Source of the DNA: Nocardioides soli
Lineage (GTDB): Bacteria; Actinomycetota; Actinomycetes; Propionibacteriales; Nocardioidaceae
Direction of reading: 5' to 3'
Assembly: GCF_014191495.1 (NCBI RefSeq)
Contig: NZ_JACHWR010000001.1
Span: 1,240,001-1,304,000, forward strand
Length of the DNA: 64,000 nt
Made by a program: the position numbers and the translations under genes. Under the pieces are notes generated by a model. The model searched no databases. It was not told where the DNA came from and worked only from the letters and a program-made list of their open reading frames with translations. Shown in pieces: positions 2,044 to 60,301 of the stretch (its first letter is position 1; each line of letters begins with the position of its first letter).

Positions 2044-2094
2044 GCGGTGAGTCAGCAACCAACCCGCCGGTCGGAACGGTTGCTGACTCACCGC
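2044..2094. repeat. 51-bp palindromic element, perfect single copy
   Basis: A perfect inverted repeat with 17-nt arms around a 17-nt loop. The left arm reads GCGGTG-AGTCA-GCAACC and the right arm GGTTGC-TGACT-CACCGC. It lies in the 112-nt gap between rsmA and ispE, which are transcribed in the same direction. It has the same geometry and terminal hexamers as the copies near 52143, 56225 and 58945, but is the only copy whose five middle bases also pair. It could act as a terminator, an RNA processing site or a protein-binding site. Confidence 0.9.
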
Positions 2095-14133: not shown

Positions 14134-15378
14134 TCAGGACCTGTTCGCCTCGATCACGCCGCGGACCTTCTCCGCCCCCGGGATCGGGACCATGTTGACC
14201 GGATCGACGATCTCGAGGGTGTAGTACTCCTCGTCCTCGGTCTGGCCGTCGCGGTTGATCTTCACGTAGATCGTGCGGGAGCCGGGGAGGAACGACGTGG
14301 GGTCGATGTAGAAGTCCGCGCCCTCGGTCGCCGTGCTCTCCGCGGCGTTCACGCGCACGGTGGCGTAGCCGTGCGAGAAGTCGCCGACCAGCGGGATCTC
14401 CACGAACTTGCCGGCCTTCTTGGTGTACTCGTTGCGCACCGGCGGCGACTGGCCGAACCCGATCGAGCCGAGCGGCGCGACGTACGTCGGGTCGGGGGGC
14501 GGCATCTGGTAGGTGCCGATCGCGGGCCGGTGGTCGGAGCCCTTGACGTTGGTCAGGATCTGGGTGCTGACCGGCGCGCCGGAGTTCCAGATCTGGTCGA
14601 TCAGCGCATTGCTGTGAGTGCCGTACTTCTTCGAGAGCAGTGGGCTCTTCTCCCAGACGGACTTGAAGCCGATCTTCTTGAACTGCTTGACCGGCAGCTG
14701 CTTCTTGCCCGCCCGGATGTCCTCCTTGTAGCCGGCGTTGAAGTCGCCCAGGACGAAGACCTCGTCGCTCGCGCTCCGCTCGGCGCGGGCGGTCTTGACC
14801 AGCGTGCGCAGCTGCTTCAGGTAGAGCTTCTTCGCCTGCGGGCGGCCCGGGACGAACTTGCCGCCCTTCACGGTGCCGGTGAGCAGGTGGACGTTGATGA
14901 AGCTGAGCTGGTGGCCGCTCGCCCGGTGGAAGAGGCGCACCACCGTCGCCCAGTTGGGGGTCTTGGCCTCCTCGCCGCCGCCGTTGCGTCCCTCGATCCG
15001 GTGCGGGTCGGAGAGCTTGACGCCGCTGCCGGAGACGAAGTCGAGCTGGCGACGGTCCCAGATGATCGGGTTCTGCTGCAGCTGCGGCGGCCGGTAGTAG
15101 CCCCAGTTGTAGTCGGCGATGAGCCACTTGTTCTTGTCGTTCATGCCGACCTCCTGGAGACCGAGCACGTCGACCGACGGCTTCACCTGGGTGACGACGT
15201 TCTTGAAGGTGTCGACCGTGGCCCGGGAGATCACGTTGTACGTGCCGATCCGCACCTGGAGCGGGTCCGCCTTGCGCGCGTGCCCGGGAGCGGGCGCGGC
15301 GGTCGAGGCGGACGTCGCGGCGAGAGCGGACAGCGCCAGGGCGGCAGCGGTCAGGACTCGGGTGGCGGCACGGTGCAC
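14134..15378 (-). CDS. secreted endonuclease/exonuclease/phosphatase-fold protein with Calx-beta domain
   Basis: A 414-residue exported protein. A signal peptide (residues 1-27, ending near STAAPAP) is followed by an EEP-superfamily domain: RIGTYNV, DVLGLQEVG with the metal-binding Glu, FINVHLL, VLGDFNAGY and GSDHRPAIG, the usual catalytic Asn, Asp and His residues of DNase I-like enzymes. The C-terminal 115 residues look like a calcium-binding Calx-beta domain (VRVNAAESTATEGADF, TIYVKINRDGQTEDEEYYTLEI). Substrate may be nucleic acid, phosphoinositide or another phosphodiester. GGGAGA lies upstream of ATG 15378 at a long spacing. Confidence 0.85.
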   Translation of the reverse strand: MHRAATRVLTAAALALSALAATSASTAAPAPGHARKADPLQVRIGTYNVISRATVDTFKNVVTQVKPSVDVLGLQEVGMNDKNKWLIADYNWGYYRPPQLQQNPIIWDRRQLDFVSGSGVKLSDPHRIEGRNGGGEEAKTPNWATVVRLFHRASGHQLSFINVHLLTGTVKGGKFVPGRPQAKKLYLKQLRTLVKTARAERSASDEVFVLGDFNAGYKEDIRAGKKQLPVKQFKKIGFKSVWEKSPLLSKKYGTHSNALIDQIWNSGAPVSTQILTNVKGSDHRPAIGTYQMPPPDPTYVAPLGSIGFGQSPPVRNEYTKKAGKFVEIPLVGDFSHGYATVRVNAAESTATEGADFYIDPTSFLPGSRTIYVKINRDGQTEDEEYYTLEIVDPVNMVPIPGAEKVRGVIEANRS

Positions 15379-49222: not shown

Positions 49223-52081
49223 ATGACGATGTACACACCCGGCCGGAAGGGCCGCGCCAGGGGCAAGACCCGGCGCGGCCGCCTCTTGGCCGCCTTCACC
49301 GCCACCGTGGCACTCGCTGTGATGCCAGCGCTCGCCGTCGTCTCACCCGCGAGCGCTGCACCGAAGGGCACCCTGGCCGCCGTGAGCGGTACGACGGCTG
49401 GGCTCACCCCGGGTCAGAGTGTCGATCTGACGCTCACCAACTACCCAGCCGAGAACGTGCTGGTGAAGTACTGCGAGCTCGTCATGGTCGGCTTCAGCAT
49501 GACGGTCGGCGACTGCGCCGCTTCTCCGGTCAACGTCACGGTGCCCGACACGGCTGGCGGGCGCGGGAACGCCACCGCCACCGCCGTCGCCCAGAAGATG
49601 ATCGGCGCCAAGGACTGCGCCGCTGCGGCGATGTGCGGGTTCGTCACCGAGTCCGCCGGGGTCACGAAGAATCCCGACTCGGACGTGAAGCTCACCGTCG
49701 CGTTCGACACACCAGAGCTTGAGATCCTCGATCGCGCGCCGACAGCTGCCGACAACAGCCCGGTCACGGTCAAGGGCACCGGATTCCGCCCGAACACCAC
49801 GATGCGGCTCACTCAGTGCAACAACTCGCTGCCCGCGGGCGGGAAGTGCCGCTCGACGCTCGGCCAGGGCTACGCCGAGCCGACCACGGACGCCAACGGG
49901 GAGTTCGAGACCGAGCTGAACGTGTCCGCGTCGTACGTCTCGGGTGCCGACACCCTCAACTGCACCGACGGGTCGATCGTCTGCGGTGTCCAGACCAGCA
50001 GCAAGGTGTCCGGCGCGGACCGGACCCAGCAGGCGATGGTCGATCTGGACTTCGGCGGCACCCTGACGGCCAGCAAGGTCACCGGGATCTCCACCGCCGG
50101 TGAGTCCATCACCGCCACCGGCACAGGCTTCCAGCCGAACATCGACCTCTACCTGGTCAACTGCGACACCGCGGTCCCCGCGGGCGGGGCCTGCGACATG
50201 GCACGGCTCGAGGAGGTGCACACCGACGCGAACGGCGGATTCAGCCAGGCGATCACCGTCGGCTCCTTCACCGGCACCGACTGCCTGGTCAAGGCCTGCG
50301 GCCTGCAGACCAGCAAGGTCGGCGCCGGCGCCGACATGAGCCAGACCGCGACGCTGCCGCTGTCCTTCACTGCGCCGCCGGTGCACACCGCGGCGCTGAC
50401 TGCCAGCAAGACGAGCGGACTGAGCGCGGCCGGTGAGTCGATCACCGCCAACGGCACCGGCTTCCAGCCGAACATCAACCTGTTCCTCGCCCTGTGCGAC
50501 ACCGCCGTCCCGGCCGGCGGCGCCTGCGACATGACGAACTTCAAGCAGGTGACTACCAATGGCTCCGGCGCGTTCAGCCAGGCCATCAAGGTCGGCTCCT
50601 TCACCGGCACCGACTGCCTGGTCAAGGCCTGCGGCCTGCAGACCAGCAAGGTCGGCGCCGGGGCCGACGCCAGCCAGACGGCGACCCTGCCGCTGTCCTT
50701 CGTAAACACCCCGCCGGCGCCCACCGCGACGATGACCGCCAGCAAGACCACCGGCATCAGCATGTCCGGCGAGGACCTGCAGGTGAACGGCTCCGGCTTC
50801 AAGCCCAACGTCTCGCTGTTCGTCGCGCTGTGCAACACCAAGGTCCCCGCCGGCGGTGCCTGCGACATGGCCAACTTCAAGCAGGTCAAGACCGACGGCA
50901 GCGGCGCCTTCCCGAAGACCTCGATCAAGGTGGTCGGGAGCTTCACCGGTGGGAACGGCTCCAAGGTCAACTGCCTGAGCGACCCGTGCGCGCTGCAGAC
51001 CAGCCAGGTCGGCGCGGGCTCGGACGCTACGCAGACCGCCACCCTGCCGCTGGGCTTCGTCAAGGGCTCCGCGACGGGCTCCAAGGCGGCGCTGAACGCA
51101 CCGAAGGTCGTCAAGTCCGGCAGCACGGTCAAGGTCAAGGGCAGCGGCTTCAAGGCCGGCACCAAGGTCCAGACCGCGCTCTGCAAGACGTCGGCCAAGG
51201 TCGGCAAGCAGTGCTGGACCGCGAAGGCCAAGACCGCCAAGGTCAAGAAGAACGGCACCTTCACGGCGAAGATCAAGGTCGCCAAGAAGTTCCAGTCCAA
51301 GCAGGGCAAGGTCAACTGCGGCAAGTCCAAGTGCGCGATCAAGACCTGGAACAAGAAGAAGCCGAAGCAGGCCTCGAACCAGGTCACGCACAAGGTGAAG
51401 TTCGGCAACAAGACCGCCCGCACGACCACGATCGTGTCGACCTCGACCGCGCTGTCCCCGACCTTCGCGGTCCGGGCCGCGCGCGCCGGGGAGAGCCTGT
51501 CGGTGAGTAAGACCTCGGGACTCTCGCCGGCCGGTGAGACCGTGTCGGTCAAGGGCTCGGGCTTCAACCCGAAGGTCGGCCTCTTCGTCGCGCTGTGCAA
51601 CACCGACGTTCCCGCCGGCGGCGCCTGCGACATGTCCAACTTCAAGCAGGTGCAGACCGACGCCAACGGCGCCTTCCCGGCGACCTCCATCAAGGTCGTG
51701 GGCACGTTCACCGGCGGCGACGGTTCCAAGGTGGACTGCTCCAGCGACCCGTGCGCCCTGCAGACCAGCCAGGTCGGGTCCGGGGCAGACGGACAGGCCA
51801 CCGTGCCGTTGACGTTCGGCGGCACCTCCTCGGGCGGCGACTCGGGCGGCGACTCGGGCGACGACGGCGCCTCCGGGGGCGACTCCGGCGGCAACGACAG
51901 TGGCGACGACGGCGCCACGTCCTCCGGTGGCACGTCGGCGAACGGCTCGTCGAGCTCGGGCGGCGGCGCCGTGCTGCCGCAGACCGGTGCCGGCGACGAG
52001 CTGTGGCTCGCCACCGTGGGTCTGCTGATGCTGGTCGGCGGGCTGGCACTGACCCTGCGCAGGAGCGCGCGCGCTTCCTGA
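49223..52081 (+). CDS. LPXTG-anchored surface protein with tandem neocarzinostatin-like domains
   Basis: A 952-residue surface protein. Signal peptide about 1-45 (ending SPASAAP). About seven related domains of 90-110 residues follow; several carry near-identical motifs such as VPAGGACDM, CGLQTSKVGAGAD or CALQTSQVG, each with two Cys pairs, and one Lys-rich divergent domain (about 612-715). A Gly/Ser/Asp-rich linker leads to the sorting signal LPQTGAGDELW, a hydrophobic helix and RRSARAS, so sortase attachment to the wall is expected. AAGGAGAG precedes the ATG. With the upstream gene it probably forms an operon serving heme capture and transfer. Confidence 0.86.
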   Translation: MTMYTPGRKGRARGKTRRGRLLAAFTATVALAVMPALAVVSPASAAPKGTLAAVSGTTAGLTPGQSVDLTLTNYPAENVLVKYCELVMVGFSMTVGDCAASPVNVTVPDTAGGRGNATATAVAQKMIGAKDCAAAAMCGFVTESAGVTKNPDSDVKLTVAFDTPELEILDRAPTAADNSPVTVKGTGFRPNTTMRLTQCNNSLPAGGKCRSTLGQGYAEPTTDANGEFETELNVSASYVSGADTLNCTDGSIVCGVQTSSKVSGADRTQQAMVDLDFGGTLTASKVTGISTAGESITATGTGFQPNIDLYLVNCDTAVPAGGACDMARLEEVHTDANGGFSQAITVGSFTGTDCLVKACGLQTSKVGAGADMSQTATLPLSFTAPPVHTAALTASKTSGLSAAGESITANGTGFQPNINLFLALCDTAVPAGGACDMTNFKQVTTNGSGAFSQAIKVGSFTGTDCLVKACGLQTSKVGAGADASQTATLPLSFVNTPPAPTATMTASKTTGISMSGEDLQVNGSGFKPNVSLFVALCNTKVPAGGACDMANFKQVKTDGSGAFPKTSIKVVGSFTGGNGSKVNCLSDPCALQTSQVGAGSDATQTATLPLGFVKGSATGSKAALNAPKVVKSGSTVKVKGSGFKAGTKVQTALCKTSAKVGKQCWTAKAKTAKVKKNGTFTAKIKVAKKFQSKQGKVNCGKSKCAIKTWNKKKPKQASNQVTHKVKFGNKTARTTTIVSTSTALSPTFAVRAARAGESLSVSKTSGLSPAGETVSVKGSGFNPKVGLFVALCNTDVPAGGACDMSNFKQVQTDANGAFPATSIKVVGTFTGGDGSKVDCSSDPCALQTSQVGSGADGQATVPLTFGGTSSGGDSGGDSGDDGASGGDSGGNDSGDDGATSSGGTSANGSSSSGGGAVLPQTGAGDELWLATVGLLMLVGGLALTLRRSARAS

Positions 52082-52142: not shown

Positions 52143-52266
52143 GCGGTGGGTGATCCACCTTCTCCGCCCGCCAATCGGTGGCTAGGTCACCGCCGCCCGC
52201 GGCCGGACCGGCCCAGCGGTGGGTGATCCACCTTCTCCGCCCGCCGATCGGTGGCTGAGCCACCGC
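52143..52266. repeat. pair of 51-bp palindromic elements, 73-bp period
   Basis: Copies at 52143-52193 and 52216-52266 have identical left arms (GCGGTG-GGTGA-TCCACC) and 17-nt loops that differ by one base. Their right arms are GGTGGC-TAGGT-CACCGC and GGTGGC-TGAGC-CACCGC. A 22-nt linker (starting CGCCCGCGG) sets a period of exactly 73 bp. They sit between convergent genes, after a separate terminator, so they are not needed to end transcription of the surface protein gene. Confidence 0.9.
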
Positions 52267-52322
52267 CGCCCGCAGGGGGTCGCCGAGGTGCGAGCGCAGC
52301 GAGCGTGGTCGACGCCACCGGC

Positions 52323-52922
52323 TCACCAGGAGCGGACCAGCAGCCGATCCACGCGAGCCGGGAGGCCGGCGCCGGCGGGGAGCCACGTCCAGGTCCACCG
52401 CTCGACGTCCAGGGCGTCACGGGCCTTCGCCGCGGGCGCCAGCGGGCCGCTGACGACCTCGGAGCCCCCGTGCCCGGCGCTCGACGCCATCAGCACGCCG
52501 AGGACGTCCGCGGGACCGGAGGCGGTGCGCCGGCGTACGTCGTACCACCCGGGCTGCCAGGTCGGGACCCCGCCGAACCAGGCGAGCGCCAGGGCTCCGT
52601 CCGGCGTGCGGGTGTCCTGTCGACACGCGTCGGCGGGCACGAACGCCCAACAGCCGGCGCCGTGACGCCGACCGTTCATCTCCAACACGCCCGCGAGCAC
52701 CACGAACTCCTCGGCCACCGCGTAGCTGCCCGTCGCCATCCGCTCCCACCCCGGGGGGAAGCGGACCAGCGAGACCGACGCCTTGCTCGCGCGGTCCAGC
52801 CACAATCGGTGCAACCGTACGGGTGCCGAGCCGCCGGGGATCTCCTGATCGACCCAGCCGGCCGAGGTGGCCGCGACCTCGTGAAGGTCGACGGCGCGGA
52901 GGCCGTCGACGGACCCCGTCAT
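52323..52922 (-). CDS. cupin-like protein
   Basis: A 199-residue protein without a firm family call. The region SVSLVRFPPGWERMATGSYAVAEEFVVLAGVLEMNGRRHGAGCWAFVPAD resembles a cupin/ChrR-type beta-barrel, with Glu and His where metal ligands are expected. The ATG overlaps the CitE-type lyase stop. It is the last gene of the catabolic cluster; a small enzyme or sensor role is possible. Confidence 0.65.
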   Translation of the reverse strand: MTGSVDGLRAVDLHEVAATSAGWVDQEIPGGSAPVRLHRLWLDRASKASVSLVRFPPGWERMATGSYAVAEEFVVLAGVLEMNGRRHGAGCWAFVPADACRQDTRTPDGALALAWFGGVPTWQPGWYDVRRRTASGPADVLGVLMASSAGHGGSEVVSGPLAPAAKARDALDVERWTWTWLPAGAGLPARVDRLLVRSW

Positions 52923-53788
52923 GAGCCGGCGCGCGCGAGCACCCGGCGGGCGTTGCGGACGACGGCGAGGTCGATCATCCGGCCGTCCGCGTCGAGCAGC
53001 ACGCCGTCGCCGGCCTGCTCGGCGCGCTCGAACCGGTCCACGATCTCGCGGGCGCGGTCGATCTCGTCGGGCCGCGGGGTGAACACGTCGTTGACGACCG
53101 TGACCTGGGCCGGGTGGATGCAGGCGCGACTGCCGTAGCCCATCCGGCGCAGGGCGTCGGTCGAGGACCGCAGGGCGTCGAGGTCGGTGAAGTCGGTCGT
53201 CACCGGGCCGACCGGGGCCTCGATGCGGGCCGCCGCCGAGGCCAGCACGACCTGACCACGGACCCAGGCCAGCTCGGCACCGTCGGCGCCTGGTTCGATC
53301 CCGCAGTCGGCCGCCAGGTCGACCTCGCCCACCTGGAGCCGCGCCACGCGCGACGCGGCCGCGATCGCGGGCGCAGCCAGCACGGCCGCCGCGTCCTCCA
53401 ACAGGGGCGAGAGCGCCACCGCGCCCACGTCGAGGCCACGAGCGTCCTCGAGCTCGTCGAGGAGCGCCGCCACGGCCGCGACGTACGCCGCGCCGGGGGT
53501 CTTCGCCAGGCAGAGCCCCGAGAGGCCGGGCGCGACGACCGCGGTGACGTCGTCGCGCCACGACTCGGCGTTGACGCGCACCCAGAGCTGGGTGGGATCG
53601 TCGCTGACGGCGTGGCCGGCGACGAACTCCGCCACCGCCTCACGCGCCCGCTGCTTGCGGGGCCAGGCGACCGCGTCCTCGAGGTCGAGGATCAGGGCGT
53701 CGGCCCCGCGCTGCAGCGCCCGGGCGAACAGCTCGGGCCGGTCCCCCGGCACGTAGAGATGGCTGCGGACGGCGGCGCGGGGCTCCAT
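52919..53788 (-). CDS. HpcH/HpaI aldolase / CitE-type CoA-ester lyase
   Basis: A 289-residue TIM-barrel lyase. RSHLYVPGDRPELFARALQRGADALILDLEDAVAW is the classic CitE opening with metal-binding Glu-Asp; LWVRVNAESW, LCLAKTPG and YGSRACIHPAQVTVVNDVF complete the family pattern. Relatives cleave citramalyl-CoA, malyl-CoA or methylmalyl-CoA. It starts 1 nt after the SDR stop, so the two are co-translated. In this cluster it probably splits a short acyl-CoA intermediate late in the pathway. Confidence 0.88.
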   Translation of the reverse strand: MEPRAAVRSHLYVPGDRPELFARALQRGADALILDLEDAVAWPRKQRAREAVAEFVAGHAVSDDPTQLWVRVNAESWRDDVTAVVAPGLSGLCLAKTPGAAYVAAVAALLDELEDARGLDVGAVALSPLLEDAAAVLAAPAIAAASRVARLQVGEVDLAADCGIEPGADGAELAWVRGQVVLASAAARIEAPVGPVTTDFTDLDALRSSTDALRRMGYGSRACIHPAQVTVVNDVFTPRPDEIDRAREIVDRFERAEQAGDGVLLDADGRMIDLAVVRNARRVLARAGS

Positions 53789-53789
53789 C

Positions 53790-54614
53790 TCAGACCGATC
53801 CGGCGACCGCGGTCGACCCCGCCGCGCCGGTGTCGCCCGCGAGCTCCGCCAGGACCTGTGCCGCGCCGGTGGCGTTGAAGTGCCGGCCCGACAGCTGGGC
53901 ACCGTTGACCGCCCGCGACTCGTCGCTGGCGAGCCAGACCGCCGCGGGCACGATGACGCCCGGCTCGGAGTAGCCCATCGGGAGCTGCTTGAGGTGCTCG
54001 GGCATCTTGTCCGGCCCGAACAGGTGCGTGTCGACCATGCCGCCCGGGGTCAGGCAGTTCACCCGCACCCCGCGCTCGGCCGTCTCGCCGGCGGCGATGG
54101 TCACCAGCACGTCGACGCAGGCCTTGGAGACCGCGTAGATGCCGGACCCGGCGCGGGCGATCCGGCCGGTCTCCGAGCCGATCGCGATGAAGCTGGCACC
54201 CTCGTCGAGCACCGGGATGGCGGCCTTCATGCACGACCACATGCCGATCGCGTTGACCCGCATCACCCGCTCGACGATGTCGGCGTCGTAGGTGTCCAGG
54301 GTGGTGTACCGCTTGTCGGTGAGCCCGGGGTACGACGTACCCGCGTTCGCGACGAAGACGTCGATGCCGCCGAGCTCGGCGACGGCGGTGCGCACCAGCG
54401 ACTGAACCTGGTCCTCCTCGGCCACGTCGGTCACGCACACGTGCACCTCGGCCCCGGCGTCGGCGCAGAGCGCCCGCACCCGCTCGAGGTCGTCCCGCGA
54501 GCGCGCGGCGAGCACCAGGCGCGCGCCTTCGCGGGCGTATCCGACGGCCATCGCCTCACCCAGGCCACGGCTGGCCCCGGTGACGACGATCCGCTTGTCC
54601 TGTAGCGCTGCCAT
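53790..54614 (-). CDS. short-chain dehydrogenase/reductase
   Basis: A 274-residue classical SDR. NAD(P)-binding motif VTGASRGLGEAMA, NAG motif VFVANAGTSYP, catalytic Ser in AIGSETGRIA and the Y-x-x-x-K motif IYAVSKA. It likely oxidises a hydroxyacyl intermediate or reduces a ketone within the pathway. ATG 54614 has GAGGTG 5 nt upstream; GTG 54620 is an alternative. Confidence 0.92.
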   Translation of the reverse strand: MAALQDKRIVVTGASRGLGEAMAVGYAREGARLVLAARSRDDLERVRALCADAGAEVHVCVTDVAEEDQVQSLVRTAVAELGGIDVFVANAGTSYPGLTDKRYTTLDTYDADIVERVMRVNAIGMWSCMKAAIPVLDEGASFIAIGSETGRIARAGSGIYAVSKACVDVLVTIAAGETAERGVRVNCLTPGGMVDTHLFGPDKMPEHLKQLPMGYSEPGVIVPAAVWLASDESRAVNGAQLSGRHFNATGAAQVLAELAGDTGAAGSTAVAGSV

Positions 54615-54630
54615 GCTCACACCTCTCGAT

Positions 54631-55791
54631 TCAGCCGATGACTGTCTTGCCCGTGACCACCGCTCGGGCCACGACCGTGCGCAGGATGTCGTTGGTGCCC
54701 TCGCCGATGTTCATCAACATGGCGTCACGGTAGAGCCGCTCGACCTCGTACTCGGTCGAGTAGCCGTAGCCGCCGTGCACCTTCATCGCGTCGATGGCCG
54801 ACGCGAGCGCGACCTCGGAGCAGAAGATCTTGGCCATGCCGGTGGCGCCGTCGGCACGCCCGCGGCGTACAGCGTCGGCGGCCCAGTAGGCCATCAGCCG
54901 CGCCGCCTGCACCTCGGTGGCCAGGTCGCCGAGCTTGAGCTGGATCGCCTGGAAATCGGCGATCGGCTGCCCGAACGCCTTGCGCTGCTGGGCGTACGCC
55001 AGAGCCTCCTCGTAGGCGCGCTGGGCGATGCCCACCGACCGGGCGGCGATGTTGACCCGCCCCCACTCCAGGCCCGAGAGCGCCTGCTGCATGCCCTTGC
55101 CCTCGACCCCGCCGACCAACCGGTCGGCCGGGACCCGGACGCCGTCGAGGAGCACCTCGCACGACTCGGTGCCCTTGTAGCCGAGCTTGTCGATGTCGCG
55201 GAGCACCTCGAAGCCGGGCAGGTCGGCGTCGACCAGCAGCAGGCTCATGCCGGCGTGCGCCGGGCTCGCCTGCGGGTCGGTCTTGACGAGCACCGGCAGC
55301 GGGTCGGCGTACCGCGCGTTGGTGATCCACATCTTGGTGCCGTTGACGACGTAGTGATCGCCGTCGAGGCGCGCGGTGGTGCGGATGCCCTGCAGGTCGG
55401 TGCCGGCGTCGGGCTCGGTCAGGCCGATGCCGGTACGTCGCTCGCCGGTCGCCAGCGCCGGCAGGTACCGCTGCTGCTGCTCCGTCGTGCCGTGCAGGGC
55501 GATGATCCGGCAGGCCAGGGAGTGGCTGCCCAGGATGCCCGCGATGCCCATCCAGCCGCGGGACAGCTCTTCGAAGACCAGCGCGAAGGAGACCGGGTCG
55601 AGGTCGAGCCCGCCGTACTCCTCGGGGACGGTGATGCCGAAGAGCCCCATCTCCTTCATCCCGTCGACGATCTCGGTCGGATAGCGCCCGCTGTGCTCCC
55701 ACTCCCGGGCGACCGGCACGATCTCCTTGTCGACGAACGTGCGCAGCAGGGCCTGGAAGTCGCGCTGCTCCTCGGTCAGGGTGAAGTCCAC
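54631..55791 (-). CDS. acyl-CoA dehydrogenase
   Basis: A 386-residue flavoenzyme introducing an alpha,beta double bond into an acyl-CoA. FAD/substrate motifs are GIGLTEPDAGTDLQGIR, WITNARYAD and RVNIAARSVGIAQRAYEEAL; the catalytic Glu region MNIGEGTNDILR is intact. The GTG at 55791 begins 1 nt after the DUF35 stop. It could supply the enoyl-CoA for the MaoC-type hydratases of the same cluster. Confidence 0.94.
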   Translation of the reverse strand: MDFTLTEEQRDFQALLRTFVDKEIVPVAREWEHSGRYPTEIVDGMKEMGLFGITVPEEYGGLDLDPVSFALVFEELSRGWMGIAGILGSHSLACRIIALHGTTEQQQRYLPALATGERRTGIGLTEPDAGTDLQGIRTTARLDGDHYVVNGTKMWITNARYADPLPVLVKTDPQASPAHAGMSLLLVDADLPGFEVLRDIDKLGYKGTESCEVLLDGVRVPADRLVGGVEGKGMQQALSGLEWGRVNIAARSVGIAQRAYEEALAYAQQRKAFGQPIADFQAIQLKLGDLATEVQAARLMAYWAADAVRRGRADGATGMAKIFCSEVALASAIDAMKVHGGYGYSTEYEVERLYRDAMLMNIGEGTNDILRTVVARAVVTGKTVIG

Positions 55792-55792
55792 G

Positions 55793-56194
55793 TCAAGCCT
55801 TCCGGTCGGGTTGGAACAGCGGCAGTGCTCGCCCGTCCGCGAGCGGCCGCCAGGCGAGTCGGAGACGGTCTCCGACCGCGACGTCGTAGGGGTGCTCGGT
55901 CACCACGTTGGACAACAGCAGCACGCCGCTGGGCAGGCGGACCCGCGCCACGACGTACGGCGCGGTGTGTCCGGGAGCCGGCCGCTCGACGACGGTGCAG
56001 GAGTCCACGACCCCGTGCTCACCCGCGTCGGCCTGACTCAGGCCGTCGGCGCTGCCGCAACGGATGCAGACCGCGCGGGGCGGGTGCTGATGGTGGCCGC
56101 AGGCGCACGCCTGGACGGTCAGCCGGCGCTGCCGGGTGGCGTCCCACCAAGGGGTCGTGACCTCGTCGCCGGGCGAGATCTCAGCGTCCGTCAT
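55793..56194 (-). CDS. DUF35 / OB-fold zinc-ribbon acyl-CoA-associated protein
   Basis: A 133-residue protein. A zinc ribbon near the N-terminus (CACGHHQHPPRAVCIRCGS, four Cys) is followed by an OB-fold (VVDSCTVVERPAPGHTAPYVVARVRLPSGVLLLSNV). Known DUF35 proteins partner thiolase-like enzymes such as the steroid retro-aldolase Ltp2, holding or positioning the CoA substrate. Here the Ltp2-like gene is the next gene upstream, separated by the 73-bp array. AGGAGG lies 8 nt before ATG 56194, so the start itself is normal despite the array. Confidence 0.9.
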   Translation of the reverse strand: MTDAEISPGDEVTTPWWDATRQRRLTVQACACGHHQHPPRAVCIRCGSADGLSQADAGEHGVVDSCTVVERPAPGHTAPYVVARVRLPSGVLLLSNVVTEHPYDVAVGDRLRLAWRPLADGRALPLFQPDRKA

Positions 56195-56224
56195 CGGGCA
56201 GCCTCCTGGCTCGTCGGCCGGGCA

Positions 56225-56786
56225 GCGGTGAGCTGGCAACCATCCGACCCCACCCAACGGTTGCTGACACACCGCCGCACGGCAGCATCGGCCGGCAGCG
56301 GTGAGCACGCAACCATCCGACCCCACCCAACGGTTGCTGACACACCGCCGCACGGCAGCATCGGCCGGCAGCGGTGAGCACGCAACCATCCGACCCCACC
56401 CAACGGTTGCTGACACACCGCCGCACGGCAGCATCGGCCGGCAGCGGTGAGCACGCAACCATCCGACCCCACCCAACGGTTGCTGACACACCGCCGCACG
56501 GCAGCGTCGACCGGCAGCGGTGAGCACGCAACCATCCGACCCCACCCAACGGTTGCTGACACACCGCCGCACGGCAGCATCGGCCGGCAGCGGTGAGCAC
56601 GCAACCATCCGACCCCACCCAACGGTTGCTGACACACCGCCGCACGGCAGCATCGGCCGGCAGCGGTGAGCACGCAACCATCCGACCCCGCCCAACGGTT
56701 GCTGACACACCGCCGCACGGCAGCATCGGCCGGCAGCGGTGAGCAATCCACCGAAGCCCGCCGCGAGGAGGTGGACAGCCCACCGC
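56225..56786. repeat. array of eight 51-bp palindromic elements, exact 73-bp period
   Basis: Left arms begin at 56225, 56298, 56371, 56444, 56517, 56590, 56663 and 56736. Copies 1-7 read GCGGTG, five bases (AGCTG in copy 1, AGCAC in copies 2-7), GCAACC, a 17-nt loop, then GGTTGC-TGACA-CACCGC. Copy 8 differs (GCGGTG-AGCAA-TCCACC, new loop, GGTGGA-CAGCC-CACCGC) yet keeps spacing and ends. The 22-nt linkers are nearly identical (copy 5 differs at two sites). The array fills most of the 619-nt gap 56195-56813, which has no gene; frames stay open through it only because the repeat lacks stops. Confidence 0.93.
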
Positions 56787-56813
56787 CCACCCGGGGCACC
56801 ACCGGCCGGAGCA

Positions 56814-57959
56814 TCATCGGTCCACCCCCAGCAGCACGGTCGCGTGGGACGACAGGATGCCGCCGGTGCCATGGGCCAGCGCCACCTCGGCGCCCGCGAC
56901 CTGCCGCGCGCCGCACTCACCGCGCAGCTGGCGGACCGCCTCGACCAGCAGCAGGATGCCGAACTGGCCCGGATGGCAGTAGGACAGCCCGCCGCCGGAG
57001 GTGTCGAGGGGGAAGTCGCCGCCGGGCCGGATCCGGCCGCCCCCGATCCAGTCGAGGGCCTCGCCGCGACCGCAGAAGCCGAGTGCCTCCAGGCTCAGCG
57101 CGACGGTGATCGTGAAGGAGTCGTAGACCTGGGCGACGTCGACGTCGGCCGGGGTGAGCCCGGCCCGGGCGAAGGCGGCCGCGCCCGAGGCGACCGCCCC
57201 GGTGGTGGTCAGGTCGTCGACGGCGGTCATCGACGTGTTCGTGACCGACTCGCCGTAGCCGAGCACCCGCACCGGCGGTCGCGCCAGGTCGCGGGCGCGC
57301 TCCAGCGAGGTCAGCACGACCGCTCCCCCGCCGTCGGTGACCAGGCAGCAGTCGCCGGTGCGCAGCGGCGTCGAGACCATCGTGGTGGCGAGCACGTCGT
57401 CGGCGGTGAGCGGGCCGGCGTCATGGCGGAAGGCCCGCGGGTTCAGCAGCGCCCACTCCCGGGCCGCGACGGCCACTTCGGCCAGCTTGTCCGGGGTCTG
57501 ACCGTAGCGGTGCAGGTAGGCCTGCGCGGCCATCGCGTAGTAGGAGATCGGGTAGAGCGGGCCGTACGGCGCCTCGAACTGGGCCTCGGGCATCTGGAGC
57601 TCCAGCGTGCCGGTGAGCGAGCGCGACCGGGCCGAGCGCTGGTTGGACGCGAACGAGATCACCACGACCTCGACCTGCCCGGCCTCGATCGCCTGGGCGG
57701 CGCGCGCGACGTACATCTCGAACGCCGAGCCGCCCGCGAAGGTCGACTCCGTCCATGCCGGCTGCAGTCCGAGGTAGTCGGCCACCTGCGTCGCGGAGAA
57801 CCGGGAGACCCCGCTGGTCGCGAGGCCGTCGACGTCGGCGAGGGTCAGCCCGGCGTCGGCCAGCGCCCGGGTGATCGCCTGCGCCTGCAGCGCGAGGATG
57901 CTGCGGCCGGTCACCCCCAGATCGCACTCGGCGGCCCCCACGATCGCCACCCCGCTCAC
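56814..57959 (-). CDS. thiolase-superfamily protein, Ltp2-like (lipid-transfer/retro-aldolase type)
   Basis: A 381-residue thiolase-fold protein. The usual catalytic Cys position reads TFAGGSAFEMYV, lacking Cys, as in SCP2/Ltp-type members that are not true thiolases. Conserved motifs include VAQVYDSFTITV and GGGLSYCHPGQFG; their Tyr residues are candidates for retro-aldol catalysis as in Ltp2. DUF35 and two MaoC-type genes flank it. It probably cleaves a beta-hydroxyacyl-CoA to a ketone plus a short acyl-CoA (inference). GTG 57959 overlaps the MaoC stop (GTGA); GTG 57968 is also possible. Confidence 0.88.
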   Translation of the reverse strand: MSGVAIVGAAECDLGVTGRSILALQAQAITRALADAGLTLADVDGLATSGVSRFSATQVADYLGLQPAWTESTFAGGSAFEMYVARAAQAIEAGQVEVVVISFASNQRSARSRSLTGTLELQMPEAQFEAPYGPLYPISYYAMAAQAYLHRYGQTPDKLAEVAVAAREWALLNPRAFRHDAGPLTADDVLATTMVSTPLRTGDCCLVTDGGGAVVLTSLERARDLARPPVRVLGYGESVTNTSMTAVDDLTTTGAVASGAAAFARAGLTPADVDVAQVYDSFTITVALSLEALGFCGRGEALDWIGGGRIRPGGDFPLDTSGGGLSYCHPGQFGILLLVEAVRQLRGECGARQVAGAEVALAHGTGGILSSHATVLLGVDR

Positions 57960-58393
57960 GGCGCGCACCGCCTCGGCTGCAGCACCAGCAACGACCGGGC
58001 CGGCTCGACGGCGACCCGCTCCTCGACACCGTCGGCGTCGATCACGACGACCCGGTGGCGCAGCTCGACGCCGTCGTCCCCGCTGCGCACCACCTCGGCC
58101 TCGCAGCGCACCCGCTCGCCGGCGAAGACCAGGTTGCGGAAGGTGAACTCGAGCTCGGCCAGGCGCCAGCCGGGTCCCGCCCAGTCCTGGGCCTGGGCCG
58201 CGACGAGGGCGCCGAAGACCTGCCCGTCGACCACGGGTGCGGCGAGCCGCTTCTCCGAGAGGTACGCCGGGTCGTAGTGCAGGCGGTGCCAGTCCCAGGT
58301 GGCGCCTGCGTAGGCGATCATGTCGGCGATCCCGATGGTCAGCTCGCGGACCGCCGGCGGCCCGCTCGGCACCGTGCTCGTCGCCGGGCTCAT
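57956..58393 (-). CDS. MaoC-type dehydratase/hydratase (catalytic half)
   Basis: A 145-residue single hot-dog protein. GATWDWHRLHYDPAY has the Asp and His spacing of the MaoC active site, and FRNLVFAGERVRCEAEVV is the usual fold-closing segment. Its ATG overlaps the stop of the adjacent MaoC-type gene. Together the two likely form a heteromeric enoyl-CoA hydratase, as in the ChsH1-ChsH2 pair of steroid side-chain degradation. Confidence 0.87.
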   Translation of the reverse strand: MSPATSTVPSGPPAVRELTIGIADMIAYAGATWDWHRLHYDPAYLSEKRLAAPVVDGQVFGALVAAQAQDWAGPGWRLAELEFTFRNLVFAGERVRCEAEVVRSGDDGVELRHRVVVIDADGVEERVAVEPARSLLVLQPRRCAP

Positions 58394-58890
58394 CGCGGCG
58401 CCTCCAGGGACACGAAGATGATCGTCTCGGTGTTCTCCACCAGCCGCTCCCCCGCCTGGTTGGTGTACGTCGCCCGGGAGGTGACCACGAGCATCTCCCC
58501 GCCCTGCCGGCCGGTCTTCACCCGCGCGTCGAGGATCTCCCAGGTCGCGGTGATCCGGTCGTCGGGGTGCACCGGCCGGTGGAACACGTAGGAGTTGCCG
58601 CCGCGCACGGTGCGGGTGTCCGGGATCTCGATGCGCCAGGTGTGCCCGGCGTACCCCTCCGCGTCCATCGGCAGGTCGGCGTACTGGTTGGTCTCGCACA
58701 CCAGCGTCGGCGGCGCCACCACGTCGCGGTAGCCGTGCGTGCGCGCGTAACCGGCGTCGGTGTAGAGCCGGTTGTGGTCGCCGACGGCGCGCGCGTAGTA
58801 GCGGAACGCCGCGGCTCCGAACTCCTCCGGTGCCGTGTAGACGGTCCGGCGGCCGACGAGCGCCGCCGCGTGCTCGGCCAGGCCGCTCAT
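58390..58890 (-). CDS. MaoC-type N-terminal (FAS1-like) dehydratase subunit
   Basis: A 166-residue hot-dog protein resembling the non-catalytic N-terminal half of MaoC dehydratases: AFRYYARAVGDHNRLYTDAGYARTHGYRDVVAPPTLV and WEILDARVKTGRQGGEMLVV. It overlaps the catalytic partner gene. In Mycobacterium ChsH2 an equivalent domain is fused to DUF35; here DUF35 is a separate gene further on. Confidence 0.87.
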   Translation of the reverse strand: MSGLAEHAAALVGRRTVYTAPEEFGAAAFRYYARAVGDHNRLYTDAGYARTHGYRDVVAPPTLVCETNQYADLPMDAEGYAGHTWRIEIPDTRTVRGGNSYVFHRPVHPDDRITATWEILDARVKTGRQGGEMLVVTSRATYTNQAGERLVENTETIIFVSLEAPR

Positions 58891-58944
58891 CGCGCCGGCT
58901 CCGGGAGCAGCGCGGTGCGGTGCCCGGCCGCGCGGTGCCGGGCA

Positions 58945-59068
58945 GCGGTGCGCCAGCAACCACTCCAACGCCCGAAACGGTTGCCCACGCACCGCCGCCC
59001 GGGCGTCGCTCCGGGTAGCGGTGCGCCAGCAACCGCTCCCATGCCGGAAACGGTTGCCCACGCACCGC
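58945..59068. repeat. pair of 51-bp palindromic elements, 73-bp period
   Basis: Copies at 58945-58995 and 59018-59068 have identical arms (GCGGTG-CGCCA-GCAACC and GGTTGC-CCACG-CACCGC) and different 17-nt loops. A 22-nt linker starting CGCCCGGGCG gives a 73-bp period. They lie in the 196-nt gap between the triple-RidA and MaoC-type genes, both minus strand. Confidence 0.92.
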
Positions 59069-59086
59069 CGCCCGGGGCGATGCCGC

Positions 59087-60301
59087 TCACAGCCCTGGCT
59101 CCGGGAGAAGTGCGGTGGCGAAGACCTCGAGCAGGAACTCCGGGCGCAGCAGGCCGGCGCACATCGCGCCGGTCGACGCCGGCCACGGCGGCGAGAGCAG
59201 CCGCTCGCGGACGGGCGCGACCAGGCGGTAGTCGCGCAGCGCCTCGATCGCGCAGAACTCCAGGGTCTGCACCAGATGCTCCGGACCGGTGCCGGCGGCC
59301 GCCAGCACGTCGAGGAGGGCCTGGTAGGTGACCTCCGCCTGGGCGCCGATGTCACCGGGGTGCAGCGCCTGCTGGGTCTCCATGTCGAGGGCTGCGAAGC
59401 CGGACATGAACAGCGTCCGGCCGGCCTTCACACCCGGCGAGTAGGTGAGCGTGTCGTAGCGCGACCAGCCGGGGTTGACCGCCTCCAGCGGGTGCCGGGA
59501 CGCGGTCACGTCCAGCGCCACGAGCACCCCGGGCCGGTGCAGCCGGCTCATCACGATGCCGCCGGCGCCCGGGTAGACGCCCGCGCCGCCCAGCCGGTCC
59601 TTCCGGACGTGGTGGACCTTGCGGTAGGTGCCCCGGGTCTCCGGCGTGGTGTAGTCGTAGGTGGTCACCGCATGGTCCAGCGACAGCCCGGCCCGGCGCA
59701 GCAGCTGGTCGGCCCGGTCCAGGCACCAGGCGTACTGCCCGACGAGGTCTCCGGGGTGGACGACCTCGCCGTCCTCCCACGGGATGATCGTGGGCAGGTA
59801 GACCGTGCCCTGGTGGGCCTCCACCACGGGCGAGGAGGTCCAGGTCCCCCGGCCCGCGGTGTCCGAGCGGGCGACCAGCAGCCGGCCGCCGCCGGTGCCG
59901 GCGTGCACCTCGACCTCGAGCAGCGCCGCCGAGCGCACCAGCCGCTCCACGACGATCGTGGTCACCGACGCGACGGCGTCGCCGAGCACCTCCTCGCGCA
60001 CCTGCTCGACCGCGGCGTACTCCGGGAGCCCGGCGAGCGTGACGTTCTCGGTCACCTTGACGATGTCGCCGGCGCCCAGGCCGGCGGCCTCCAGGATCGT
60101 GAGCACCTTGTCGTACGCCGTGCGCGCCTGCTCGGCCATGGACCCGGTGACCACCATCTTCGCGGCGCCCGGGTCCAGGCGGGACGCGGTGTGCCCCGAG
60201 ATCCAGGCGTCCGGGCCGGACGTCAGCCCCAGCGAGAAGGTGAACCCCTCGTAGGGGAACCACGGGAAATCGGCGGGCTTGATCGCCGAGGGGGTGCTCA
60301 T
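59087..60301 (-). CDS. protein of three fused RidA-like domains
   Basis: A 404-residue protein that appears to hold three RidA/YjgF-type domains: about 15-125 (ISGHTASRLDP...LLEVEVHAG), 135-280 (VYLPTIIPWEDG, DVTASR) and 290-404 (RTLFMSGFAALDME, LVQTLEFCAIEA, FLLEVFATALLP). Single-domain RidA proteins hydrolyse reactive enamines/imines; some relatives have other roles. The conserved catalytic Arg of canonical RidA is not obvious in every domain, so activity is uncertain. ATG 60301 overlaps the MmgE/PrpD stop. Confidence 0.78.
   Translation of the reverse strand: MSTPSAIKPADFPWFPYEGFTFSLGLTSGPDAWISGHTASRLDPGAAKMVVTGSMAEQARTAYDKVLTILEAAGLGAGDIVKVTENVTLAGLPEYAAVEQVREEVLGDAVASVTTIVVERLVRSAALLEVEVHAGTGGGRLLVARSDTAGRGTWTSSPVVEAHQGTVYLPTIIPWEDGEVVHPGDLVGQYAWCLDRADQLLRRAGLSLDHAVTTYDYTTPETRGTYRKVHHVRKDRLGGAGVYPGAGGIVMSRLHRPGVLVALDVTASRHPLEAVNPGWSRYDTLTYSPGVKAGRTLFMSGFAALDMETQQALHPGDIGAQAEVTYQALLDVLAAAGTGPEHLVQTLEFCAIEALRDYRLVAPVRERLLSPPWPASTGAMCAGLLRPEFLLEVFATALLPEPGL

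Follow-up and report, generated by a model that had tools for sequence, protein, structure and literature searches.

Miniature inverted-repeat transposable elements (MITEs) are short, non-coding and intergenic, and have inverted arms. Repetitive extragenic palindromes (REP), with the bacterial interspersed mosaic elements (BIME) and the REP-associated tyrosine transposases (RAYT), are described in three papers as high-copy intergenic palindromes with composite arrays and a usually single, repeat-flanked gene, the cognate repeat and protein differing between genomes (PMC2817692, PMC3733652, PMC6006769); Actinobacteridae are stated there to carry only the insertion sequence (IS)-type subclass (PMC6006769). 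AbiEi-type proteins, according to a further report, bind 23-bp inverted repeats in pairs (for Rv2827c, two such pairs arranged in tandem), and AbiEi bends DNA, with positive co-operativity for AbiEi and negative co-operativity for Rv2827c (PMC7319586). In this work, a 64,000-nucleotide stretch of the Nocardioides soli genome (positions 1,240,001 to 1,304,000 of contig NZ_JACHWR010000001.1; hereafter the window) was analyzed, in which 51-bp palindromic elements occur at four sites. Copies of these elements were found to flank a gene of about 310 codons, the product of which combines an AbiEi-like part with a fold like that of the Vsr/I-Bth0305I nucleases (the AbiEi-Vsr protein). The elements are probably double-stranded DNA recognition sites of this AbiEi-like/Vsr-like nuclease, with which they would form a selfish, REP-like system built around an unrelated enzyme.

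The window held 13 exact copies of the element, each composed of a 17-bp arm, a 17-bp spacer and a second 17-bp arm, and none was found in 100 dinucleotide shuffles; the pattern and coordinates given in an initial annotation of this DNA were reproduced exactly. A genome-wide search, which that annotation had recommended, was performed with a relaxed pattern (GCGGTG-N6-CMACC-N17-GGTKG-N6-CACCGC). It yielded 90 exact copies in the own genome (G000; 5.8 Mb, 22 contigs) and 114 at up to three mismatches, against none for a reversed control pattern, a frequency far above chance by both the shuffles and this control. When GTDB species were scanned at one genome each, at least 93 element-bearing stretches were recovered; among the matches listed, 90 of the 93 belonged to records with Nocardioides, Aeromicrobium or Nocardioidaceae in their names, and a single metagenome-assembled genome, named only Actinomycetes, supplied the other three. 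Thirteen of the 93 (L096-L108) were included in the consensus, arm-pairing, 61-bp-form and gap analyses, and left out of those on neighbor-loop identity, flanking repeats, half-sites and protein clustering.

The consensus of 153 unique copies was R-GCGGTG-NSYNR-GCAACC-N17-GGTTGC-YNRSN-CACCGC-Y, in which the boxes are invariant because the copies were collected by those boxes; a weak A/T preference was observed immediately inward of the inner boxes, and the flank consensus consisted only of R ahead of GCGGTG and Y behind CACCGC. When exact arms were required and loops of 5-30 bp permitted, the loop measured 17 bp in 160 of 162 cases, and at up to four arm mismatches, with only loops of 16-18 bp permitted, lengths of 17, 18 and 16 bp were counted 361, 10 and 4 times, respectively. 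In some relatives the loop measures 27 bp, an extension by about one helical turn, and the resulting 61-bp form was found at four gene loci (G038, G066, G043 and G098). The earlier statement that the loop never varies in length thus holds as a near-constant 17 bp, but not for the rare 16- and 18-bp loops or the 27-bp form in relatives. Mean loop identity between neighbors was 0.76-0.94 at the three multi-copy window sites, suggesting that part of the 13 window copies arose by local tandem duplication, and many arrays clearly grew in this way. An autonomous element bounded by single half-sites was also considered and rejected, many of the orphan half-sites being elements with loops of 16 or 18 bp; no unit bounded in this manner was seen on inspection by eye.

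Clustering of proteins encoded near elements revealed the AbiEi-Vsr family, which is bracketed by elements in several genomes. Among 50 loci with strong homologues, from four genera, 45 had a GCGGTG/CACCGC palindrome within 420 bp of the gene (32 upstream, 40 downstream and 27 on both sides). Under the same rule, a GCGGTG element was beside the gene in none of 31 distant homologues; among 214 other genes of 250-400 codons, taken from own-genome stretches chosen for their elements, 20 had an element and none had one on both sides, and the loci L147-L165 of relatives, 89 kb in total, contained no elements. When exact hexamers were required, an element lay within about 500 bp at 24 of 30 Nocardioides loci, and on both sides at 18 of them; the other six comprised four with the 61-bp form, one with a single mismatch (L236) and one with no element (L231). 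Outer boxes were constant within the clade and inner boxes varied by genome (GCAACC, GCCACC, TCAACC, TGAACC, GGCACC, GGACCGG and others), and three other genera of the family carried strong homologues in the same arrangement with further inner boxes.

The structure model of the AbiEi-Vsr protein was confident (predicted local distance difference test, pLDDT, 91.3). Residues 182-285 matched the catalytic domain of I-Bth0305I (3r3p; Z 10.2, root mean square deviation 2.4 over 96 residues) and residues 1-177 matched the AbiEi antitoxin 6y8q (Z 9.3 over 170 residues). Five residues (E185, D217, E228, E230 and H234) were invariant across 26 aligned sequences, an alignment that left out L233, L240, L247 and L253 for stops or truncation, and these are candidate catalytic residues of the predicted nuclease. 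DUF559 (PF04480) matched two of four proteins at 12.6 and 14.3 bits, below the 20.6 cut-off, and the other two had no listed match to this profile. The NCBIfam search of the protein returned nothing, the search of solved structures by sequence gave no credible match, and in a viral fold library the best matches, with E values no better than 0.003, included DUF559, Vsr and restriction-type proteins. Inner-box distance correlated with protein distance (r 0.44, n 45), a relation confounded by descent; after allowing for the nuclease part, residues 1-117 correlated with the inner box at r 0.23, and the converse gave r 0.12, both with the same confounding.

Among 147 Nocardioides genomes, the strict motif was present in 28 and the gene in 47 (43 strong homologues, E < 1e-50, and four near 1e-21); order-wide, 82 of 391 genomes and 8 of 40 genera matched the profile at E <= 1e-40. 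Based on the outer boxes only, with a leading A that makes counts lower than for the hexamers alone, the 147 genomes gave 770 matches of 51 bp (128 in the control) and 1739 of 50 bp (174 in the control). Genomes were taken as element-rich when the larger of these two counts reached 7 or more, which was the case for 37 of the 43 with a strong gene and 15 of the 104 without (Fisher p 1.4e-16, a value that overstates independence since the genomes are related). Three of the six gene-carrying genomes that were not element-rich (G038, G066 and G043) carried the 61-bp form beside the gene. The link was weaker for the strict GCAACC/TCCACC motif, with the gene in 15 of 28 motif genomes vs. 28 of 119 others (p 0.002). 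One 50-bp-class element was letter-identical in four genomes (G053:C17:7868, G126:C10:309444, G075:C1:647951 and G089:C1:618009), where it is perhaps a conserved functional site.

Gaps between neighboring elements clustered at 11, 22 and 33 bp, that is, at whole helical turns, the 73-bp array period being one rung of this ladder. Among 181 distinct neighbor pairs with gaps of up to 70 bp, 3 fell at 11-12, 147 at 19-24, 20 at 30-33, 1 at 44 and 1 at 55 bp, the remainder being one gap at 17 and eight at 50, 52, 58, 64 or 67 bp. The ladder was kept in the 74 pairs with unrelated loops (two gaps at 12, 52 at 20-22, 14 at 32-33, one at 44 and five others), so recent tandem duplication does not by itself account for it. 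Across 203 unique elements, pairing at the variable arm positions did not exceed that of permuted columns, and positions 9/41 paired less than expected (0.18 vs. 0.34); positions 11-13, within the inner box, changed concordantly between arms, which we explain by inner-box variants common to both. Because the variable arm bases showed no excess pairing, the best interpretation of the element is a pair of inverted half-sites in double-stranded DNA, and its pattern points to recognition of double-stranded DNA, not of a hairpin. The initial annotation had suggested selection either on structure or on a protein recognizing the ends; the helical gaps, the lack of covariation and the flanked protein family favor the protein, and hairpin covariation was rejected for want of any pairing excess at the variable arm bases.

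Elements were intergenic at all four window sites, the pair at 52143-52266 lying between convergent genes. In the own genome, where about 90% of the DNA is coding, 41 of 43 arrays lay outside genes as judged with a simple codon-based gene finder, so the elements show an intergenic bias and were not found inside genes as often as between them. Thirty arrays were between co-directional genes, 9 between convergent and 2 between divergent ones (background pairs 465, 97 and 101, respectively). The operon junction that holds the eight-element array measured 614 bp, vs. -18 to 90 bp in the loci of 19 relatives (one of them, L163, masked), and was opened in the own genome only among the genomes compared. 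In a paralogous cluster of the own genome the same junction measured 320 bp, with elements; this cluster (G000:C2:1430677-1434351) is a second copy of the window acyl-CoA dehydrogenase/thiolase cluster (75-83% identity) with its own array at that junction. In alignments, the 58945 junction was 6 bp in G088 and 17 bp in G079, vs. 206 and 201 bp in the window. Flanking direct repeats were above chance, with 10 of 177 arrays at score >=16 where 1.5 were expected; this analysis detected no fixed-length short target duplication around arrays, and the excess consisted of a few longer, imperfect repeats.

The gene occupied several chromosomal places among 28 Nocardioides loci (L240 and L253 were left out of the gene-placement and flanking-element counts). 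Ten genomes shared one place, six or seven, including the own genome, shared a second, two pairs shared others, and seven loci had no shared neighbor within 1.5 kb. At the own place, five other genomes were occupied (1218-1346 bp between flanking matches) and 14 others had both flanks, separated by 13 to 152 bp in nine and by 184 to 1162 bp of other sequence in five; one further locus lacked one flank. By sequence, the gene has palindromes of its own on either side, and gene units and arrays stand at sites that are empty in relatives. The features concerned are listed in Table 1.

Table 1. Elements and associated features in the window, with the own-genome copy of the linked gene (coordinates refer to the window unless a contig is given).
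Feature	Coordinates	Remarks
Single element, GCGGTG-N5-GCAACC / GGTTGC-N5-CACCGC	2044..2094	between two minus-strand genes, 2116-2931 and 1101-2003, which we take to be ksgA and ispE
TCCACC-type element, copy 1 of 2	52143..52193	
TCCACC-type element, copy 2 of 2	52216..52266	gap 22 bp
Operon junction holding the eight-element array	56195..56813	614 bp as measured in the comparison with relatives
Seven tandem GCAACC-type elements	56225..56713	period 73 bp (51 bp + 22-bp spacer)
Eighth array element, TCCACC-type	56736..56786	different loop, same 22-bp gap
42-bp imperfect direct repeat, left copy	58876..58917	candidate duplicated target; flanks the 58945 array
GCAACC-type element, copy 1 of 2	58945..58995	
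GCAACC-type element, copy 2 of 2	59018..59068	gap 22 bp
42-bp imperfect direct repeat, right copy	59076..59117	
Own copy of the AbiEi-Vsr gene	G000:C8:15303-16262	outside the window; elements at 15129 and from 16254 on

In the mechanism that we propose, each of the two inverted arms of an element would be bound by one AbiEi-like part, with neighboring elements occupied on one face of the helix. Nicking or cutting by the nuclease part, at the element or at a target, would be followed by host repair that copies elements, or joins them, into further intergenic positions, in some cases with duplication of the target. Elements that stand alone or in arrays would derive from the palindrome-gene-palindrome unit as its non-autonomous forms, a relation like that proposed for REPs and RAYTs, though with an unrelated enzyme.

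Several observations weigh against this interpretation. Binding, cutting and mobilization by the AbiEi-Vsr protein are steps that we infer from sequence. In the structural comparisons, the Z values under 8 obtained with Vsr (1cw0, Z 7.2) and Rv2827c (1zel, Z 6.4) may mean only a common arrangement, and the Foldseek E values were weak (about 0.2), with probabilities of 0.99 for 3r3p and 0.77 for 6y8q. Rv2827c itself is reported to bind its repeats with negative and not positive co-operativity (PMC7319586). Five of the 50 strong-homologue loci showed no element, and 15 element-rich genomes had no strong homologue; the profile search of these 15 found only distant homologues in six and none at E <= 1e-10 in nine, indicating that elements persist, or are moved, without the AbiEi-Vsr gene. 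Among the ten best flanking-repeat pairs, two (L211 and L212) are part of a different repeat family and two more (L184 and L094) probably derive from repetitive coding sequence of one gene; in four of the remaining pairs (window 58945, L053, L123 and L137) ATGA or TCAT occurs, the sign of a stop codon that overlaps a start codon. Comparison with relatives gave no clear target duplication for the gene unit at its own place, and the gene is usually single-copy in Nocardioides, with one place common to ten genomes, unlike a very active insertion sequence.

This last point bears on a different explanation, which we regard as rather unlikely, namely that the system is domesticated: the protein would bind the elements, the dispersed sites would serve chromosome organization, local silencing or insulation between genes, and the elements would have spread long ago by ordinary duplication. 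The position common to ten genomes means that the gene can stay put for long; helically phased arrays would suit cooperative binding, arms stay alike within arrays as loops diverge, and the intact catalytic residues are compatible with a host role. However, the patchy presence of the motif (28/147) and of the gene (47/147) fits a selfish element better, and the location of the gene at several unrelated places, the empty sites in relatives and the inner boxes varying by genome also count against domestication.

It is improbable that an AbiEi-type repressor of a toxin-antitoxin or defense-like system uses the palindromes for autoregulation, with the genomic copies titrating the repressor. Downstream elements, at a median of 9 bp after the stop codon, are at least as frequent as upstream ones (40 vs. 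32 of the 50 loci), and the genes beside the own copy encode a CoA transferase III and an ABC ATPase, neither of them being a dedicated AbiEii (DUF1814) toxin. Nor would this account for the 90 copies, almost all of which are remote from the gene. In its support, the upstream element, where present, lies at a median of 114 bp before the start codon, the PADLOC AbiEi profile gave a weak match (17.7 bits) in one of four proteins, and the promoters of AbiEi antitoxins contain inverted repeats to which the antitoxin itself binds (PMC7319586).

Very unlikely, too, is the mobilization of the elements by some other transposase, the AbiEi-Vsr gene being only their frequent neighbor. The 15 element-rich genomes without a strong homologue speak for it, but the gene is bracketed at different chromosomal places, compared with 0 of 214 like-sized genes near elements, and the bracketing recurs in other genera with other inner boxes. 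Moreover, Y1_Tnp (PF01797) had no match at E <= 0.001 in the own genome, the only one searched, in a search that was aimed at RAYT alone and whose control was positive in 5 of 14 known genomes; the link to a RAYT-type transposase suggested in the initial annotation found no counterpart there. Finally, hairpins in RNA or single-stranded DNA (terminators, mRNA stabilizers or REP-like substrates), which would agree with the intergenic position and with the fully complementary 17-bp stem of some copies, e.g. 2044-2094, are scarcely credible given arms that pair no more than permuted columns and less than expected at 9/41, a loop of fixed length or about one turn longer, and gaps that follow the helix.

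If the elements are indeed recognition sites of the AbiEi-Vsr nuclease, the GCGGTG family may be one branch of a broad, undescribed class of actinobacterial repeats, in which AbiEi-Vsr nucleases are each bracketed by, and specific for, their own two-box palindrome and spread it between genes, with the outer box set by clade and the inner box exchangeable; we consider the case for and against this extension to be evenly balanced. A string of at least 13 bp was shared between the two flanks of the gene in 16 of 31 distant homologues (5.8% in mismatched pairs), and in 19 of 28 of the strong set (25% in mismatched pairs). About ten distant homologues (among L318-L330, and L261) were bracketed, as judged by eye, by palindromes with other boxes, which supports the broader class, and in L321 the inner GCAACC stood inside a different outer box, suggesting that boxes are exchangeable. 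Should the proposed link between nuclease and elements be correct, REP-like genome-wide palindromes would have a second, independent origin centered on an unrelated enzyme, and the spread of tiny non-coding repeats would become testable in a new setting. It would also suggest a function for actinobacterial proteins resembling orphan antitoxins fused to DUF559-like domains, and provide many natural pairs of protein and two-box site with diverged specificity, useful for deriving a recognition code.

Other repeats were also noticed. L211 and L212 (both G061) held another family beside them, with palindromes such as TGCGGTTTG...CAAACCGCA; palindromes of the type GGACGTCATACG...CGTATGACGTCC, possibly one more family, were present in the intergenic region of L346 (G055) and L366 (G109), and similar GACGTCAT strings flanked arrays in L029, L055 and L085. 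In N. dokdonensis FR1436, ten CRISPR arrays without cas genes are reported (PMC5526307); the candidate genome of this strain (G097) held 15 strict element copies, and some of those CRISPR calls might therefore be element arrays. In the window, the plus-strand gene at 49223-52081 encodes a protein of 952 residues, in which the neocarzinostatin family (PF00960) matched six times and a Gram-positive wall-anchor motif was also present.

No match to Rfam was found in the window, and the papers listed by searches of the open-licence PubMed Central literature, judged by titles and abstract openings, contained no description of the elements or of a link between this protein and palindromes; the initial annotation had not recognized the repeat as a named REP or BIME family. 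The link between a family of nuclease-like proteins and palindromes of its own is apparently undescribed. Plasmid sequences gave no DNA match to the eight-element array and no protein match, and viral contigs had no exact GCAACC-type motif and, by peptide-pattern search, no relative of the protein.

Among known systems, the elements resemble MITEs in being short, non-coding and intergenic with inverted arms, but these arms bracket only 17 bp, the flanks showed a few longer imperfect repeats above chance and no short target duplication of fixed length, and complete palindromes often stand at both ends of the gene unit (27 of 50 loci). According to the structure model, residues 1-177 share the fold of AbiEi antitoxins (S. 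agalactiae AbiEi and M. tuberculosis Rv2827c), from which the protein differs by its nuclease fusion, by the lack of a dedicated toxin partner in the own genome and by sites dispersed chromosome-wide. The C-terminal fold, with its conserved acidic residues and histidine, is like that of I-Bth0305I, Vsr and DUF559, and is accordingly described here as a predicted nuclease, although in this case the protein is fused to an AbiEi-like domain and flanked by palindromes. In contrast to REP, the palindrome end carries no GTAG/GTGG-type tetranucleotide, the arms are not selected for base pairing, albeit inner-box positions do change together, and each arm consists of two boxes around a fixed or turn-shifted spacer; unlike the HUH-type RAYT, the protein is AbiEi-like plus Vsr-like, and Y1_Tnp gave no match in the own genome. 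The system works like REP/RAYT, yet is not a member of that family: a cognate gene flanked by its repeats, high copy number, intergenic dispersal, composite arrays, and repeat and protein that vary between genomes are all found here, together with an unrelated gene.

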